The translations under genes and the position numbers were made by a program. From Bacteroidales bacterium (GTDB lineage Bacteria; Bacteroidota; Bacteroidia; Bacteroidales; UBA932), in NCBI GenBank assembly GCA_029009115.1, contig JAQXJU010000064.1, positions 1-64,000 of the forward strand: 64,000 bases of DNA, written 5' to 3'. The notes below the pieces were generated by a model. The model was not told the DNA's origin. It saw nothing but the letters and a program-made list of their open reading frames with translations, and searched no databases. Positions within the stretch are counted from its first letter, which is position 1, and every line of letters begins with the position of its first letter. This document shows, piece by piece, positions 1,261-49,133 of the stretch.

Positions 1261-1475
1261 CGTGAAATTCACCTTCGGGGCGCACCCCCACCAGAAGGCC
1301 TTCAGAGGCCTATGGTCTGTGGAGGTGGAATGACTTTGTGTCCACCTCGGCGCCGCACCACCACTACAGGCACCTCAGAGGCACATTGCTTTTCAAGGTG
1401 AATTTCACCGAGAAGGGTGACCCCAGCCAGAAGCACCTCAGAGGCACATTGCCCTCAGAGGTGAATTTCACCGGG
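1261..1475 (+). repeat. Dispersed palindromic repeat element, copy A (63-bp period)
   Basis: GTGAAATTCACC at 1262-1273, GGTGAATTTCACC at 1397-1409 and 1460-1472. Hairpin GAGGTGGA(N11)TCCACCTC at 1322-1348. Colinear with the reverse complement of 45961-46245. Confidence 0.9.
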
Positions 1476-1510: not shown

Positions 1511-2461
1511 TCAGAGTTTGGCAATCTCTTCGACAGAGAACCCAGTACACTTGGCGATCGTCAGGACATCAACTCCTGCGGCCTTCAGTGCGGCCACTGT
1601 CGCAAGGAGTTTAGCCTTTCCCTCAGCGATCCCTGCCTCGCGGCCCTCGGCGATCCCCTCCTCCCGGCCTTGGGCTACACCTTCCAAGAGCCCCTTCTTG
1701 TAGCTTTCTTCAGCAGCGTATTCGATCGAGTTGTAGTAACTGAAGTCCATATCGATAGAGTGTTTGTACTGTTCGTATTCTTCGGGACGCAAGTTACAGA
1801 TTTTTGCAATCTCAAACAAATGGTCAAACTCCTTCTCTGTGAAGACACCGGGCTGCTCCGAAAGCTGCTGGATATTCTTGAACAGATACATCCATTTGTC
1901 GTAAGGGGTCTCAATTTCGGATTCCGACTTGTTGAAGCGAGCAATCTCGAGGAAGATTATTTGAAGTTTGTCCATCAGCAGTTCCCCGGACTTGTCCTCT
2001 CGAAGGCTGTACGAGGAATGGTACCGTTCTTCGGGCCAGTCTTTGTTGTGCTCGAGCTGGAAGTTCAGCACTCCGATGAGTTTTACAGACTTCAGGCAAT
2101 AGTTCCAGCGCTGGGCTGCGAGACCCGATTCGGGCTGCTTTGCAAGTCGGCCCTGCTCCATAATGGGATACGACAGATAGTAGAGGGCTCTGTCGCTGAA
2201 GTATCGCTCCCGCCCGAGTTGCATCTCGACGATGTATTCCTCGCCCTTGTCCGTCCTGACGAACACATCGAACGTTACTCTTTTGTCGTCCTTGGAAGGG
2301 CCGAAGTGCTCGACATTCCTGAAGGTTACATCGCAGATGTCCTTGTCTTCGAGGATGTCTTTGAGGAATTTGATGAGGATGTCCTTATTGTCTTCACTGC
2401 CGAAGATGCGCTTGAACATAAAATCGGTCGTTATCCGACCGTAAACCGAATCAGTCGCCAT
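1511..2461 (-). CDS. Rpn family / PD-(D/E)XK nuclease family transposase-like protein (PDDEXK_2)
   Basis: N-term TTDFMFKRIFGSEDNKDILIKFLKDIL; VTFDVFVRTDKGEEYIVEMQL catalytic region; C-term GREEGIAEGREAGIAEGKAK repeats typical of the family. Confidence 0.88.
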   Translation of the reverse strand: MATDSVYGRITTDFMFKRIFGSEDNKDILIKFLKDILEDKDICDVTFRNVEHFGPSKDDKRVTFDVFVRTDKGEEYIVEMQLGRERYFSDRALYYLSYPIMEQGRLAKQPESGLAAQRWNYCLKSVKLIGVLNFQLEHNKDWPEERYHSSYSLREDKSGELLMDKLQIIFLEIARFNKSESEIETPYDKWMYLFKNIQQLSEQPGVFTEKEFDHLFEIAKICNLRPEEYEQYKHSIDMDFSYYNSIEYAAEESYKKGLLEGVAQGREEGIAEGREAGIAEGKAKLLATVAALKAAGVDVLTIAKCTGFSVEEIAKL

Positions 2462-2693: not shown

Positions 2694-3815
2694 TCAATGC
2701 AGAGAGAGTAGCCAGGATGAGATGAAGTCTATCCTCTTCTCAAGAAGGGGGCAGGCAAGGGCGGAGGGACGGTCTTCGGGCTTGTTGGTCAGCATAGTGA
2801 TTCCGGATGTGAAAACAACACATCTGAGCCCGTGCTCAAGAAAAATCCTGTGGTCGCCGGTTCTGTTGTAAAAGAGTCTGGTAAAGTCGCGGCTCCCGTA
2901 ATAATCGTAGGTCAGATGCAGGCCGAAAGCCTTGTTGGCACTTTCGAGAGAGCGGGAATAGTAGGCTCCGCCAAGTGCAATGAGGTATTCTTTGTTGTAT
3001 TTGACAACAGGAGACAATGAACTGCCTATAATGTCAAGGTTCACAACGAGGGATATCTGCGATGCACGAACGGGGAAACCAGTCATAGGGTCGGTAAGTT
3101 TGCCACTGGAAACTGCATCCCACAGAGCCTGGGATCCGCTACAGTTGTGTCTGTGTCCGTCCAGGGCAACGAAGACCACATTCCTGGGGCGGACAGGGGC
3201 GGCGGCAAGCCGCCCGGCGATGCCCAGCATCGCCGCAACGCCCGAGGCGTTGCTGTCCGCCCCCGGATACATACTTCCATTTATGGTCCCCATCCCGTCG
3301 AGCGATGCCATCACGACAATATAGTTTCTGGAACCTGTCTTTTCCGAAGCAGGCAGGAATGCAGCGAGATTATGCCCTATTACCCCGTCAGAAAGCGGAA
3401 AAGAAAGCGCCTCGGGGGCACTCAAGCCATCAATGGCCGACATCCTCCTGCAAACATAGCCAAAAGCCTCACCATAACCCTTTGTACCAGACCTCCGGCC
3501 TTCACATATGACGCTCGCAAGAAACTCAACGTCAGAGCCGCACTGATGCTTTTCAAGACCGCTGATTTCCTTGGGCAGAGACGCCTGCACATCAGGAAAC
3601 GACACCCTGACCAGGGCCGGCGGAGACTGCAAACGGCCATCAGTGCCTTCAACCGTGGAGGCGAGAGACTTCAAACGACCATCAGTGCCTTCGACCGTGG
3701 AGGCGGCGGGAGCCTGCAAACGGCCATAAACTATGCCCGCAGAAAGCAGTGTCCCGTTAAGAATCAGACACAGCGACAAAAGAAGAAAATTGCTCAAGTA
3801 TTTCAATTCGGGCAC
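2694..3815 (-). CDS. M28 family zinc-dependent exopeptidase, secreted
   Basis: Hydrophobic N-terminal signal; SLDGMG...GADSNASGVAAMLGIAGRL resembles the M28 metal-binding core. Probable GTG start. Confidence 0.72.
   Translation of the reverse strand: MPELKYLSNFLLLSLCLILNGTLLSAGIVYGRLQAPAASTVEGTDGRLKSLASTVEGTDGRLQSPPALVRVSFPDVQASLPKEISGLEKHQCGSDVEFLASVICEGRRSGTKGYGEAFGYVCRRMSAIDGLSAPEALSFPLSDGVIGHNLAAFLPASEKTGSRNYIVVMASLDGMGTINGSMYPGADSNASGVAAMLGIAGRLAAAPVRPRNVVFVALDGHRHNCSGSQALWDAVSSGKLTDPMTGFPVRASQISLVVNLDIIGSSLSPVVKYNKEYLIALGGAYYSRSLESANKAFGLHLTYDYYGSRDFTRLFYNRTGDHRIFLEHGLRCVVFTSGITMLTNKPEDRPSALACPLLEKRIDFISSWLLSLH
3630..3730 (-). repeat. Intragenic 42-45 bp tandem repeat encoding ASTVEGTDGRL
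   Basis: CAAACGRCCATCAGTGCCTTCRACCGTGGAGGCG at 3630-3663 and 3672-3705, plus partial CAAACGGCCAT at 3717. Confidence 0.85.
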
Positions 3816-6826: not shown

Positions 6827-8662
6827 ATGAAACATTTCTGGAAGGTACTGAAGCGCTTTGCTTCACCTTACACCAAGTACTTGGGAGGTTCGCTTCTGCT
6901 GAACGTCCTGAGCGCGGTATTCAATATCTTCTCCTTCACGCTTATCATTCCCATACTCCAGATACTGTTCAATGTCAACGAAATGAGCTATGAGTTCATT
7001 GCCTGGGATACCGAAGGGATAAGCCTCAAGGATATTGCACTGAACAATCTCTACTGGTATGTTACTGAAGGAATGACCCAGTGGGGCCCCCAGAGGGTAC
7101 TCCTTGTTCTGTGCCTCTTCCTGTCGGTGATGACGGCCATCAAGACAGCCTGCTATTTCGGTTCCAATGCCGTTCTCGTGCCTATGAGAACTGGCATTGT
7201 CAAGGATATGAGGATGATGATATACGACAAGATTCTCGCCCTTCCCTTAGGTTTCTTCTCTCAGGAGAGAAAGGGAGACATCATTGCCAGGATGTCAGGA
7301 GATGTGGCCGAGGTCGAGTATTCCATCACCAACGTCCTTGAAATGATTATCAAGAATCCTGTTCTGATTCTCTTCTATCTGGGGACTCTGATGATGATTT
7401 CTTGGCAGCTGACTTTGTTCGTGCTGGTCTTCGCCCCCGTGATGCTCTATCTTATGGGAGTGATAGGGCGCAAGCTCAAGGCGCGCTCACTCGAGGCCCA
7501 GAGCCTTTGGAGCGACGTGATGGCCCAGGTCGAGGAGACCCTCGGTGGCCTGAGGATAATCAAGGCCTTCCTTGCTGAAGGAAAGATGTCGGCACGCTTC
7601 GGCAAGGTAACTGCCGCAATGCGTTCCAAGATAACCAGGGTATCTGTACGTCAGGCTCTGGCCCATCCCGTGAGCGAATTCCTCGGGACCGTGATGATAG
7701 CTATAGTTCTCTGGTTCGGAGGGATGCTCATTCTCGGAGACAGGGCCGGAATCGATGCTCCTACCTTCATCTTCTATCTGGTGATACTCTACAGCGTCAT
7801 CCAACCCATAAAGGAACTTGCCAAAGCAGCATACTGCATTCCCAAGGGGCTTGCATCGATGGAGAGAATAGACGTCATCCTTCAGGCACATAACGACATT
7901 GTCGAAAAGGCCGTCCCTTCAAGGCTTGAATCTTTCAACGACAAGATTGTCTTCGACCACGTCAGTTTCAGCTACGGAGACGGCAAGACTGTTCTCAAGG
8001 ACATCTCATTTGAGATACCCAAGGGCAAGACCATAGCCATCGTAGGCGCCTCAGGTTCAGGGAAATCCACGCTTGTGGACCTCATTCCCCGCTTCTACGA
8101 TGTCAGCTCCGGCTCAATCACCATTGATGGGGAGGATATCAGGAATCTGAAAATCAGCGACCTCCGCTCGATTATGGGCAATGTCAACCAAGACCCCATC
8201 CTCTTCAACGACACCATTTTCAACAACATAGCCTTCGGAGTGGAGAATGCTGACCGCGAGTCTGTAATAGAGGCTGCAAAAATTGCCAACGCCCACGACT
8301 TCATTATGGAGAAGGAAGAAGGCTACGACACCAACATCGGAGACAGGGGAATCAAGCTCTCCGGCGGACAGAGGCAGAGGATTTCTATCGCCAGGGCAAT
8401 ACTCAAGAACCCTCCCATACTCATTCTCGACGAGGCTACGGCCTCGCTCGACACCGAGTCGGAGAGGATAGTACAGGATGCCCTCGACTACCTGATGAGT
8501 AACCGGACTACAATCGCAATCGCCCACAGGCTTTCGACCATCAAGGGAGCAGACGAGATAATTGTGCTCGATGAGGGCAGAATAGTCGAGAGAGGCACCC
8601 ACGATTCCCTCATAGAGCTGGGCGGTTTCTACAAGAAGCTGTACGATATGCAGTCGTTATAA
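6827..8662 (+). CDS. ABC transporter ATP-binding/permease protein (MsbA-like exporter)
   Basis: N-terminal TM domain; Walker A GASGSGKST; signature LSGGQRQRISIARA; Walker B ILILDEATASLD. Confidence 0.93.
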   Translation: MKHFWKVLKRFASPYTKYLGGSLLLNVLSAVFNIFSFTLIIPILQILFNVNEMSYEFIAWDTEGISLKDIALNNLYWYVTEGMTQWGPQRVLLVLCLFLSVMTAIKTACYFGSNAVLVPMRTGIVKDMRMMIYDKILALPLGFFSQERKGDIIARMSGDVAEVEYSITNVLEMIIKNPVLILFYLGTLMMISWQLTLFVLVFAPVMLYLMGVIGRKLKARSLEAQSLWSDVMAQVEETLGGLRIIKAFLAEGKMSARFGKVTAAMRSKITRVSVRQALAHPVSEFLGTVMIAIVLWFGGMLILGDRAGIDAPTFIFYLVILYSVIQPIKELAKAAYCIPKGLASMERIDVILQAHNDIVEKAVPSRLESFNDKIVFDHVSFSYGDGKTVLKDISFEIPKGKTIAIVGASGSGKSTLVDLIPRFYDVSSGSITIDGEDIRNLKISDLRSIMGNVNQDPILFNDTIFNNIAFGVENADRESVIEAAKIANAHDFIMEKEEGYDTNIGDRGIKLSGGQRQRISIARAILKNPPILILDEATASLDTESERIVQDALDYLMSNRTTIAIAHRLSTIKGADEIIVLDEGRIVERGTHDSLIELGGFYKKLYDMQSL

Positions 8663-44586: not shown

Positions 44587-45792
44587 ATGAAAAAGAATTT
44601 CTTAAGGGAGAAAAACGACAAGACAGCATTGTCGATGCGTTTAGCGTTGAAATTGTGCATAACCAACGGCAGCAGCAGCATTGCTGATTTCAGCCGCGAG
44701 TTGAACCTGAGTGTCCCCACTGCAACCAAAATTATCGGCGACCTGGTTGAAGAGGGATTTCTGATGGAAGAAGGCAAACTGGGAACATCAGGAGGCCGCA
44801 AGCCCAGCATTTTCGGTCTCAATCCCGATGCCGGCTATTTTCTGGGCGTAGATATAGCAAGACAGCACTTTCACATTGCAGTAACCAATTTCAAAGGTGA
44901 AGAAGTGCTTTTCATTCAGGACATTGCCTACGTTCTGGAGGCCAGTTCAGACTCATTCCACGGAATCTGCTCCCTGATAAAAGAAAAGGTTACAGGCGCC
45001 GGCATACCATGGATCAAGATTCTCGGAGCCGGGATCAGTCTTTCGGGAAGGGTCAACCCCGAAAAGGGATTCTCTTTCTCTTACTTCCTCAATGACGAGT
45101 TCCCCATCAAGGACCTCTTTCAGATGGAACTTCAGCTCCCTATCAGCATAGAGAACGATTCGCGTGCAATGACCTACGGAGAGTATCTGTTCCGCGGAGA
45201 GGATGCCGACCCCAACACCATCTTCATCAATTTGAGCTACGGGCTCGGTATGGGTATGATTCTGGACGGAAAACTCTACTACGGAACGTCGGGATTCTCT
45301 GGAGAAATAGGACATTTCCCCTTGCTGGACAATGACATACTCTGCCGCTGCGGCAAAGTCGGATGTCTCGAGACCGGAGCATCGGGACTAGCTCTGAAAC
45401 GTATTATCTGCGACCATCTCAAGGCAGGCAGGCGTTCGTCGCTGAGCAAACTCTACAAGCAGAAAGAGGGAGACCTCAAGCTTCACGAGATTCTTCAGGC
45501 AGTCGAAGAAGAGGATATGCTTGCCATCGAAGGTGTCGAGATCATCGGCGAGACCCTCGGAAAGGGCATTGCCGGTATCATCAACATCTTCAACCCCGGT
45601 CAGCTGATCATCGGCGGACGTCTGATAGTCGGGAAGGATTACCTGATGCTCCCCGTTAAGACTGCCGTCAACAAGTATTCCCTGTCCAAGGTCAGCATCG
45701 ACACCAAGATCAGTTTCTCAAAGCTCGGCCGCAAGGCTGCCGCCATCGGTGACTGCCTGCTGAGCCGTTCAAAGGTGCTGGGAATCATCTGA
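44587..45792 (+). CDS. ROK family transcriptional regulator/sugar kinase
   Basis: N-terminal wHTH (NLSVPTATKIIGDLVEEGFL); GVDIARQHFHIAVTNFKGE; CRCGKVGCLETGASG zinc motif. Confidence 0.9.
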   Translation: MKKNFLREKNDKTALSMRLALKLCITNGSSSIADFSRELNLSVPTATKIIGDLVEEGFLMEEGKLGTSGGRKPSIFGLNPDAGYFLGVDIARQHFHIAVTNFKGEEVLFIQDIAYVLEASSDSFHGICSLIKEKVTGAGIPWIKILGAGISLSGRVNPEKGFSFSYFLNDEFPIKDLFQMELQLPISIENDSRAMTYGEYLFRGEDADPNTIFINLSYGLGMGMILDGKLYYGTSGFSGEIGHFPLLDNDILCRCGKVGCLETGASGLALKRIICDHLKAGRRSSLSKLYKQKEGDLKLHEILQAVEEEDMLAIEGVEIIGETLGKGIAGIINIFNPGQLIIGGRLIVGKDYLMLPVKTAVNKYSLSKVSIDTKISFSKLGRKAAAIGDCLLSRSKVLGII

Positions 45793-45799
45793 TTTCATA

Positions 45800-45926
45800 A
45801 GTTTGAGAGAGGGCAAGATAGGCGGTGAGTTTGAGAGAGGCAAGGACGGGCGCTGGCGTTGACATTTGGAAGGACGAGAGAAGGAGAAGCGGCGAGTTTA
45901 AGAGAGGCACGAGAGGCAAGGACGGG
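45800..45926. repeat. Purine-rich imperfect direct repeats (AGTTTRAGAGAGGCAAGGACGGG-like, about 3 copies)
   Basis: Units start at about 45800, 45828 and 45895, just downstream of the ROK stop codon. Confidence 0.65.
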
Positions 45927-45960
45927 AGAGAGGCGAGCACCAGACTCGGCGAACAGTAGA

Positions 45961-46245
45961 TAACCGGTGAAATTCACCCCGAAGAACAATGTGCCCCAGA
46001 AGGCCTTCTGAAGGGGGTAAGCTCGAAAGGTGAATTTCACGAGATTGCCCAATCGGCCTCTGAGGTACTTCTGAAGGGGGTAGCCTCGACCGGTGAAATT
46101 CACCTTTGAAACCAATGTGCCTCTGAGGGCATTGTAGAGGGGGTCAGGCTCTGAGGTGGACACAAATTCGTTCCACCTCCGAAGGCAACCTGCCCCAGAA
46201 GGCATTCTGACAGGGGTTACCCCGAAAGGTGAATTTCACGGAAAG
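45961..46245 (-). repeat. Dispersed palindromic repeat element, copy B (63-bp period)
   Basis: GGTGAAATTCACC at 45966-45978 and 46092-46104, GGTGAATTTCAC at 46029-46040 and 46228-46239. Hairpin GAGGTGGA(N11)TCCACCTC at 46153-46179. Reverse complement is colinear with 1261-1475. Confidence 0.9.
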
Positions 46246-46265
46246 CGGATTAGTTACCATTTGAA

Positions 46266-46625
46266 TTGTCAATTAATAGTGAGGTTATAGCTTTGGGACG
46301 CATCGACTGGGAGAAGAGGACTGTCAGGCATATGATTGAGTTGTGGTGCCAGAAGAACCACGGCCACAAGGCTATGTTTGATATGGACCGGAATAGCCTC
46401 GGAGGCAAGGCAATGTGTGAAGAGTGTCGAAAGATGCTTGACTACTCTTTGGCGCGACTAGACCATTGCCGTTTCGGGGACCGGAAGACAAAGTGCCACA
46501 AGTGCACTGTACACTGCTATCGTCCGGATATGCGCGAGAAGATTCGGGCAGTGATGCGATTCAGTGGCCCGAGAATGATACTATTTCACCCGCTGGAAGC
46601 ATTGAGGTATCTGCTATCACCGTAA
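46266..46625 (+). CDS. Nitrous oxide-stimulated promoter family protein
   Basis: KRTVRHMIELWCQKNH...CEECRKMLDYSLARLDHCRFGDRKTKCHKCTVHCYRPDMREKIRAVMRFSGPRMI. Confidence 0.88.
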   Translation: MSINSEVIALGRIDWEKRTVRHMIELWCQKNHGHKAMFDMDRNSLGGKAMCEECRKMLDYSLARLDHCRFGDRKTKCHKCTVHCYRPDMREKIRAVMRFSGPRMILFHPLEALRYLLSP

Positions 46626-46718
46626 TTGTGTTCAATCTATTCCAAAAGACTCTCTCGCAAACTTCGGAAGCAATGCCAAAACCAGTGCCCGACAGGTCTG
46701 GCGAACCAGCACTAAAAC

Positions 46719-46749
46719 GCCCTCCCGCCTTCTTTTCCGGCAGGAGGGC
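46719..46749 (-). terminator. Hairpin terminator downstream of hsp20
   Basis: GCCCTCCTGCC/GGCGGGAGGGC near-perfect 11-bp stem (minus strand) followed by GTTTTAG; lies 25 bp past the hsp20 stop. Confidence 0.6.
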
Positions 46750-46773
46750 ATACGCGTCAAGCCTGATTACTGC

Positions 46774-47205
46774 TTACTGAATCTCAATCTGCTTTACGGC
46801 AGGCTGTCTTTCAGTGACCTTAACCTTCGGTATTTCAATGGTAAGGATACCGTTGTTTACCGTGGCCTTGATTTCGTCCCTGTTCACATCTTCAGGAAGA
46901 GCGAGGCTCTGTTCGAACTTGCGATATGAGAACTCTCTGCGAAGGTACTTCCTCTTCTTGTCCTCATCCTTGCTTTCGTTCTTCTTCTCAAGGGTCAGTA
47001 CCAGATAGTTGTCATCCGTTACATTGACCTTGAAGTCTTCCTTAGTCATTCCAGGTGCGGCGACCTCGACCTTGTAGTCTGTCTCGTCCTCAATAACATT
47101 GATGGCCGGAGCGGTTGTGCTTGTGCGGTTCATCCAATCATTGGCGAAGAAATCGTTGAAGATTTCGGGCAGCCAATTCTGTTCGTAACGTCTCATAGGT
47201 GTCAT
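46774..47205 (-). CDS. Hsp20/alpha-crystallin family small heat-shock protein
   Basis: YKVEVAAPGMTKEDFKVNVTDDNYLVLTLEKK...YRKFEQSLALPEDVNRDEIKATVNNGILTIEIPK. Confidence 0.94.
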   Translation of the reverse strand: MTPMRRYEQNWLPEIFNDFFANDWMNRTSTTAPAINVIEDETDYKVEVAAPGMTKEDFKVNVTDDNYLVLTLEKKNESKDEDKKRKYLRREFSYRKFEQSLALPEDVNRDEIKATVNNGILTIEIPKVKVTERQPAVKQIEIQ

Positions 47206-47368
47206 GATAAAAGTCTCCTATACTAAGTTGTTAAACATATTAACCTGCCCCGTTGTTCGAACGATCATTCATAACCGGATGGTCGCTCTCGCTGTCGCGG
47301 GAACAATCAGCACATTGTCAAATCCGGTGCCAGATGCCCAGATAACCCTTAGAAGTGAAACCGATACT

Positions 47369-47417
47369 GACAGAATGTGCACAAAAGTGGACAGAATGTC
47401 TAAAAAACTGCCAGACT
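47369..47417. promoter_or_regulatory. Candidate operator: phased direct repeats GACAGAATGT upstream of hsp20
   Basis: GACAGAATGT at 47369-47378 and 47390-47399 (21-bp spacing); weaker CTGCCAGACT at 47408-47417. Confidence 0.45.
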
Positions 47418-47477
47418 ACTATCTGAACACCCGCCAAAGTCTGGGGAGGGCAATCCGGGTTGAAGGTGAGCTTCAGC

Positions 47478-49133
47478 TTACTCCGGTTTGTAAGAGTCTT
47501 TCAGAGACACGGTTTTGTTGAAGACGGGGTGAGCGGGAGTGCTGTCTTTGTCTTTGATGTAGTAGCCGGTACGTTCGAACTGCACTGCTATGCCGCTCTC
47601 GTCGTCAAGAAGAGCTGGCTCGGCATAACCCTTTCCGAAGGTGAGCGACTCGGGATTCAGGAAATCCTTGTAGTCTTTATCCTCGGGTACCTGGCTCATA
47701 TCGGCAAGCGTGAACAGGCGGTCGTAGTTACGGAGTTCGAGTTCCTTGGCGTGAGCAATCGAGACCCAGTGAATGGTTCCCTTGACGGAGCGCCACTCTC
47801 CGGCTCCCGGGCGAGTCGAAGGGTCGTAACTGCACCTGAGTTCAAGCACATTGCCTTCGGCATCCTTGACAACCTCCTCACACTTGATGATATAGGTGTA
47901 TTTCAGGCGCACCTCTCCGTCGGGCTTGAGACGGAAGAACTTTTTGGGTGCATCCTCCATAAAGTCGGCACGGTCAATGTAAAGCTCGCGGCTGAAGGGC
48001 ACCTTGCGAGAGGCTCCTTCGGGCTCGGCTGGGTTCAGCGGACAGTCGAACCACTCCACCTGACCCTCGGGATAGTTGGTAATGATAATCTTGACCGGGT
48101 CCTGAACCACCATATAGCGGTTGGAGCGGGCATTCAGGTCCTGACGCACGCACCACTCCAGCAACTGGATATCCATCAGTTGGTCGCGCTTTGAAACTCC
48201 AATCTTGTCGCAGAACATCTTCAGGGCTTCGGCGGTATAGCCGCGACGTCTCACACCGCAGAGTGTCGGCATGCGAGGGTCATCCCAACCGGCAACTATC
48301 TCCTTCTGAACCAGTTCGAGGAGCTTGCGCTTGCTCATCAGGGTATAGGTGATATTCAGACGGGCAAACTCATACTGATGCGAAGGGTAGATGCCGAGTG
48401 TCTCGATGAACCAGTCGTACAGGGGCCTGTGGACATCGAACTCGAGTGTGCATATGGAGTGGGTGATGTGCTCTATGGAATCGCACTGCCCGTGTGTGAA
48501 GTCATACATCGGGTAGATGCACCATTTGTCGCCGGTACGGTGGTGATGCGCGTGCTTGATGCGGTACAACAGAGGGTCCCTGAACATCATATTCGGATGT
48601 GCCATATCAATCTTGGCACGGAGTACCTTTTCGCCGTCGGCGTACTTGCCGTCGCGCATCTCGCGGAAAAGCTTGAGGTTCTCCTCGACGCTGCGGTTGC
48701 GCCAGGGGCTTTCCTTGCCCGGAGTGTCAACTGTCCCGCGTCCCCTGGATATCTCTTCCTGAGTCTGGTCATCGACATAGGCAAGGCCCCTTTGAATCAG
48801 CTGTTCAGCCCATTCATAGAGCTGGTCGAAATAATCCGATGCATAGAGTTCCTTGTCCCACTGGAAGCCCATCCAGCTGATGTCCTCCTTGATGGAGTCA
48901 ACGTATTCGGTATCTTCCTTGGTTGGATTGGTGTCATCGTAACGGAGATTTGTCTTGCCCCCATATTTCTGGGCAAGTCCGAAATTGATGCACAGGCTCT
49001 TGGCATGTCCAAGATGAAGGTATCCGTTGGGTTCAGGGGGGAATCGGGTCAGAATGCTCTGTACTTTGCCCGATTTGAGGTCGTTTTCGATTATTTCCTC
49101 GAGGAAATTCAGCTTCTTAGGTGAGTCTTCCAT
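47478..49133 (-). CDS. glnS: Glutaminyl-tRNA synthetase
   Basis: TRFPPEPNGYLHLGHAKSLCINFGLA; YPMYDFTHGQCDSIEHITHSICTLEF; LMSKRKL. Start set at MEDSPKK. Confidence 0.94.
   Translation of the reverse strand: MEDSPKKLNFLEEIIENDLKSGKVQSILTRFPPEPNGYLHLGHAKSLCINFGLAQKYGGKTNLRYDDTNPTKEDTEYVDSIKEDISWMGFQWDKELYASDYFDQLYEWAEQLIQRGLAYVDDQTQEEISRGRGTVDTPGKESPWRNRSVEENLKLFREMRDGKYADGEKVLRAKIDMAHPNMMFRDPLLYRIKHAHHHRTGDKWCIYPMYDFTHGQCDSIEHITHSICTLEFDVHRPLYDWFIETLGIYPSHQYEFARLNITYTLMSKRKLLELVQKEIVAGWDDPRMPTLCGVRRRGYTAEALKMFCDKIGVSKRDQLMDIQLLEWCVRQDLNARSNRYMVVQDPVKIIITNYPEGQVEWFDCPLNPAEPEGASRKVPFSRELYIDRADFMEDAPKKFFRLKPDGEVRLKYTYIIKCEEVVKDAEGNVLELRCSYDPSTRPGAGEWRSVKGTIHWVSIAHAKELELRNYDRLFTLADMSQVPEDKDYKDFLNPESLTFGKGYAEPALLDDESGIAVQFERTGYYIKDKDSTPAHPVFNKTVSLKDSYKPE

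Follow-up and report, generated by a model that had tools for sequence, protein, structure and literature searches.

Intergenic palindrome arrays with a conserved site and exact spacing in a Bacteroidales genome: a putative protein-binding ladder

Results

Two palindrome arrays in the window

The window, the whole 64,000-nt stretch analyzed here, comes from contig 64 of a 2.04-Mb draft genome (G000; 116 contigs, 95% complete) and carries two arrays, A and B, of a short palindrome P and a longer palindrome H (Table 1). Gene content, genome size and G+C suggest, tentatively, that this gut-type Bacteroidales genome belongs to a Cryptobacteroides-like genus. In array A the core-to-core steps are 136 bp and then 63 bp. 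A perfect hairpin lies inside the 136-bp step, with its center 68 bp from the center of each neighboring core. Array B (45966-46240) is on the opposite strand and has the same plan, P-63-P-63-P-68-H-68-P. Thus, the features read from the window in the original prediction, i.e., cores on a 63-bp ladder, a longer step holding a hairpin and a second copy near 46 kb with the same architecture, are all borne out. P matches with up to two mismatches number 8 in the window against 1.49 expected, and 0 of 100 shuffles reach 8.

The transposase gene that faces array A is no constant neighbor of other arrays. An imperfect 45-bp tandem repeat (914-1055) lies directly upstream of array A, GAGAGAGGCAAGGACGGG repeats (45809-45940) are found in the interval from the ROK gene to array B, and a further tandem repeat with a 42-bp unit in 2.5 copies is present at 3619-3727.

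Table 1. Features of the two arrays and their neighbors in the window, and arm sequences of core-bearing units in related genomes
Feature	Sequence	Position	Strand	Basis or remark
Array A, node P+	CGTGAAATTCACC	1261-1273	+	core match (1 mismatch), lattice position
Array A, 50-nt spacer, P-to-H type		1274-1323	+	spacer typing
Array A, long palindrome H	GAGGTGGA-N11-TCCACCTC	1322-1348 (23-bp node 1324-1346)	+	perfect hairpin
Array A, 50-nt spacer, H-to-P type		1347-1396	+	spacer typing
Array A, node P-	GGTGAATTTCACC	1397-1409	+	exact core
Array A, 50-nt spacer		1410-1459	+	lattice measurement
Array A, terminal node P-	GGTGAATTTCACC	1460-1472	+	exact core
PD-(D/E)XK nuclease family transposase gene, neighbor only		1511-2461	-	3' end faces array A
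ROK-family gene, neighbor only		44587-45792	+	upstream of array B
Array B, node P		45966-45978	-	core match
Array B, node P		46029-46041	-	core match
Array B, node P		46092-46104	-	core match
Array B, long palindrome H		46153-46179	-	hairpin match
Array B, node P		46228-46240	-	core match
YgbA_NO family gene, neighbor only		46266-46625	+	downstream of array B
Arm, G082	CTTCATGAAATTCACCGCGCGAG
Arm, G135	TGTCAATCACCTGC
Arm, G036 and G005	TTAAAGCACA
Arm, G243 and G006	TGAAGCAC
Arm, G033 and G019	CGCGTTGACA
Cloverleaf-like unit, G203, G244, G207	begins CCGAAACTTAAA

A genome-wide family on an exact lattice

The family consists of about 48 intergenic arrays with about 300 palindromes, which together take up about 20 kb or 1% of the genome. 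There are 300 P sites in the genome with at most one mismatch from GGTGAAWTTCACC, as against 0 for the reversed control pattern, and BLAST of array A against its own genome gives 174 matches. The element is therefore not limited to two copies genome-wide, and it is the dispersed repeat that had been proposed, in the form of intergenic arrays. Detailed measurement of 41 sequences, namely the window plus 40 further loci, covers 46 arrays, which contain 284 P and 56 H nodes and span 19.7 kb in total; two further array places are found on contig 56. Many arrays are close to a contig end, at a distance of a few hundred bases or less, as on contigs 5, 13, 17, 27, 71, 79, 109 and others. Since the arrays seem to break the assembly, their true number is probably higher.

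P (GTGAAWTTCAC) forms a 13-bp node with a 63-bp period, and its central W changes orientation from node to node. Successive steps run P+ 63 P- 63 P+ 68 H 68 P- 63 P+, and the pattern continues in this way. H (GGTGGA-N11-TCCACC) is occasional, is flanked by 68-bp steps and sits almost always between P+ and P- (53/54 left steps), while the array ends are ragged. Measured edge to edge, 287 of the 294 spacers are 50 nt long, the rest being 51 (five), 49 (one) and 71 nt (one). There are four spacer types, P+ to P-, P- to P+, P to H and H to P, each with its own consensus and all with the common motif ACCCC..CAGAA..GAGGC..TTG. A CRISPR array, in which identical repeats separate unrelated spacers, does not fit, because the spacers are homologous to one another, with about 77% identity within a type.

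Genomic place and strand pairing

No array lies within a coding-like gene and there are three marginal ORF overlaps, which bears on the question, raised with the original prediction, of whether the copies are always intergenic. No neighboring gene family or mobilizer was found to be constant across the arrays. Arrays are over-represented between convergent genes (10/21 as against 5/44, Fisher p 0.003), an enrichment that is tentative because the gene calls came from a rough, home-made codon-usage method. Array direction has no strand bias against local GC skew (24/41) and no link to the replication strand.

In the region corresponding to window positions 44587-48193, the ROK gene of several relatives directly adjoins the next gene, the one that starts here at about 47478. 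Array B is accompanied by two extra genes, and it, the YgbA_NO gene and an HSP20 gene intervene only in this genome among those compared. No such element is present at 29 loci of relatives around the ROK or HSP20 gene. In relatives, the two genes that flank the contig-7 array were matched at separate places. An IS or MITE would have defined ends, a target duplication and a linked transposase; the arrays have ragged ends, and no clean empty site was seen, as flanking genes are non-adjacent in the relatives looked at.

A role at the RNA level has been proposed for REPs, and the arrays could likewise be transcribed at gene 3' ends into ladders of hairpins that terminate transcription or shield mRNA. 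The tentative excess between convergent genes is in keeping with this, and so is folding. P and H can each form a small hairpin, P can pair with the next P, and the hairpin energies of P, H and the spacer core are below those of shuffles (DNA parameters). Single-strand roles are thus possible, though the data within this genome do not require them. However, arrays also occur between divergent genes, and they adjoin the 3' end of at least one gene no more often than other intergenic gaps do (16/21 and 34/44). Within the genome there is no Watson-Crick covariation, mutual information being mainly between neighboring bases. RNAalifold gives no pair and no consensus structure for the spacer, and Rfam searches over array loci return only tRNAs and sub-threshold matches. 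We consider an RNA-level role quite unlikely.

Coding potential

A 21-aa repeat peptide had also been proposed for the array, and this reading is largely refuted by the sequence. The 136-bp step across the hairpin breaks the reading frame at every H, and the proposed peptide frame contains 17 stops in 78 units and 12 in 99 units. ORFs inside the arrays do not have coding-like codon usage, and no open frame with a coding signature runs through an array, as would be expected of a protein-coding tandem repeat. In one forward frame of one spacer type there are 17 stops against 31 in column shuffles, and third positions are slightly more variable. However, most of this deficit traces to one codon, at which two linked sequence states occur, and the synonymous fraction in that frame is not raised. 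The arrays are non-coding, and a peptide has next to no probability.

A common core with changing arms in relatives

Exact P copies number 87 here and 0 to 2 in each of 36 other genomes of the genus, and P enrichment is confined to this species. Over GTDB genomes, the exact pattern gives three isolated single pairs, in other phyla only, which we take to be chance. The spacer has a wider distribution, as 33 genomes besides this one, of 250 searched with a sequence-only spacer model, have matches. Among the best core matches in other genomes, 11/29 are flanked by perfect inverted repeats 8 bp or longer, as against 1.6% of random positions. Many of the matches in relatives are arm-core-arm units whose arms differ by lineage (Table 1), and in G243 the arms differ between loci within one genome. 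Most of these units fold better than shuffles as single-stranded DNA. Some weak core matches look like coincidences inside protein genes.

Same-genus relatives share the spacer core found here with different arms, e.g., TTAAAGCAC every 75 bp. A second species, G036, has true arrays in which TTAAAGCAC and GTGCTTTAA alternate at 47 and 28 bp, giving a 75-bp period. We suggest that the 63-bp unit of this genome is itself an arm-core-arm unit in which the linker between units is down to one base, so that the closing arm of one unit plus the opening arm of the next would make the palindrome P.

Conservation of P and of spacing

Between nearest-neighbor arrays, differences fall at 11/1507 sites (0.73%) in the inner 11 bp of P, at 29/735 (4.0%) in H and at 1061/6944 (15.3%) in the spacers. 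These figures come from a single draft genome of 116 contigs with many arrays at contig ends. P is thus about 20-fold more strongly conserved than the spacers. Of the 284 P cores, 265 are intact, and badly damaged nodes have not been overlooked, because no internal step is doubled: no array has lost an internal node, and every internal spacer is 49, 50, 51 or 71 nt long. The identity of same-type spacers is about 77% between arrays and, for the two P-to-P types, 80% inside one array. This small difference speaks against local homogenization of arrays. Since the P core differs far less than the spacers, P is held by selection. The comparison shows that P is under purifying selection, acting after the arrays had spread, and this is the chief new fact of the present study. 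One P in all arrays, while the spacers drift, points to a trans-acting factor and not to local homogenization.

Spacer length also appears to be held. Indels generally arise at about one per ten to twenty substitutions, and at that rate they would be expected to alter a large share of the spacers; the share seen is 2.4%.

Alternatively, the arrays could be neutral selfish repeats without function, their arms being kept perfect by template-switch correction of quasi-palindromes. This would account for arms that are matched within a locus and differ between species and between loci of G243. However, local correction would let P diverge between arrays, and all of them share one P while their spacers differ by 15-23%. 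It would also leave the exact spacer length unexplained. We regard this explanation as very unlikely.

Mobilizer search and known repeat systems

RAYT-like Y1 transposase genes are present in 11/15 genomes of the genus tested. In G000, Pfam Y1_Tnp is not detected, and a genus-specific alignment finds no RAYT in this genome or in G082, G135, G073, G213 and G129. Because G000 is 95% complete, a RAYT gene could have been missed. In the relatives, the RAYT loci examined are not flanked by the arms described here. A RAYT as the driver in this genome was rejected on the Pfam and genus-specific searches. The Y1 (RAYT-like) proteins form a family of about 310 aa, with 34-51% mutual identity in five that were aligned. 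They reach up to 7 per genome in part of the genus, are undetected in other members, and were seen at L191-L198 and L204-L218 (G243, G244, G203, G207, G036, G019, G148, G176). Some of these genes appear to carry flanking inverted repeats of their own.

These genes bear on a possible origin as a REP/REPIN-like hairpin transposon. Its paired arms would fold when the DNA is single-stranded and be mobilized by a Y1 (RAYT-type) transposase, which would now be lost from this genome or act in trans from elsewhere. The inverted arms around a common core in relatives, their folding and the frequency of RAYT-like genes in the genus all argue for such an origin. Against it are the failure to detect Y1_Tnp or RAYT in the genomes named above, the lack of these arms at the RAYT loci examined, the absence of a GTAG or CGTC tag beside P (each within 8 nt of at most 1/283 nodes) and the lack of strand bias. 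Furthermore, P is intact after dispersal, unlike a spent transposon copy. We judge this origin unlikely.

BOX and ERIC are modular or 126-bp-scale intergenic repeats containing palindromes. They resemble the arrays as intergenic repeats with palindromes; they are set apart in that neither is known to form long ladders of one exactly spaced palindrome. As predicted, no named element was recognized: Rfam, phage, plasmid and IMG/VR (viral contig) searches give no match. The architecture is of the BIME kind. BIMEs are made of REP units and are found in Escherichia coli and others (PMC2817692, PMC3733652). Like them, the arrays are clusters of short, intergenic palindromes that exceed 100 per genome, have regular spacing (63-bp steps) and alternating orientation (the central W), and vary between related species. 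The arrays differ from BIMEs in two hallmarks of REP families, as P is 13 bp and not a 20-40 bp stem-loop tagged GTAG or CGTC, and no cognate RAYT gene flanked by the repeat is detected in G000. P is also shorter and perfect, spacers are exactly 50 nt, P is far better conserved than the spacers, a second palindrome H occupies fixed places, and a genus-common core is combined with lineage-specific arms. REPINs, the inverted REP doublets that occur with RAYTs, share inverted arms around a spacer and several arm families per genome (as in G243), but the RAYT loci examined in this genus are without these arms. Bacteroidetes, the same phylum, have TnpA-REP subclasses 2.4 and 2.6, and the secondary structures of subclass 2.6 are atypical (PMC6006769). 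Y1 transposases are present in the genus; however, they are not detected in this genome and are not linked to the arrays.

Discussion

The arrays are a new repeat family of the BIME kind that is real, large and well ordered. What is new is the unusual conservation of both site and spacing, together with an evolution in which the core stays constant and the arms change. We tentatively favor, with a probability of about 0.45, the reading that these non-coding intergenic arrays are a putative protein-binding ladder with a role in chromosome organization or insulation. The active part would be duplex DNA, and P would be bound by a sequence-specific protein, probably a dimer. With P every six helical turns, the bound copies would lie on one face of the DNA and could build up a regular nucleoprotein stretch where genes border one another, often at convergent pairs. 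Such a stretch might serve chromosome organization or topological insulation. H would be another palindrome of this lattice, wider than P. The arrays may have spread as ready-made multi-unit blocks, and grown or shrunk by 126-bp units.

The lattice supports the ladder reading, as it is exact (287/294 spacers at 50 nt) despite a spacer identity of only about 77%. So do the arrays of G036, which follow the same logic with other arms. Speaking against it, the clear hairpin (inverted-arm) elements around the core in relatives fit a single-strand role equally well. B-DNA has 10.5 bp per turn. The 63-bp step is thus 6.0 turns. The 73-bp step that spans the 23-bp H node comes to 6.95 turns and the one 84-bp step to 8.0 turns, and none of the three deviates from an integral number of turns by more than half a base pair. 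This fits the predicted array of phased protein sites on one DNA face, where the binding itself is what we infer and same-face geometry may be the property that is selected. In G036, however, the 75-bp period is 7.14 turns. One-face phasing is therefore no rule of the whole family, and strict helical phasing as such a rule is weakened.

A broader reading is a genus-wide system of a conserved core with diversifying palindromic arms, each read by a lineage-specific DNA-binding protein, which in this genome takes the form of phased ladders. We think this unlikely. If it were true, shortening of the linker to one base would have made helically phased protein ladders out of hairpin elements at dozens of sites between genes, and the arrays would be a bacterial satellite-like, chromosome-organizing DNA.

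Bacterial interspersed palindromes are usually taken for transposon remains or transcription signals. Here, the roughly 20-fold conservation in about 48 arrays with no detectable REP transposase makes the question of service to the host directly testable. The genus supplies natural variants in which the core is kept and arms and periods are different.

Other core-bearing and adjoining sequences

A conserved leader, GTAAGCGTCTCCGCGATTACGTGTTGATATTG, adjoins two arrays here (L055 near 6241, L066 near 6168) and one element of another species (L087, G082); a gene in this leader was not borne out. In G025 (L110), a perfect 32-bp palindrome, AATCGGCCTCTGAAGTACTTCAGAGGCCGATT, is built of the spacer core and lies just before a terminator-like hairpin. 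In G270, contig C94 has two core-bearing repeat groups with a 247-bp period (1-600 and 6890-7300), about 6.4 kb apart and oppositely oriented, like the ends of a larger unit.
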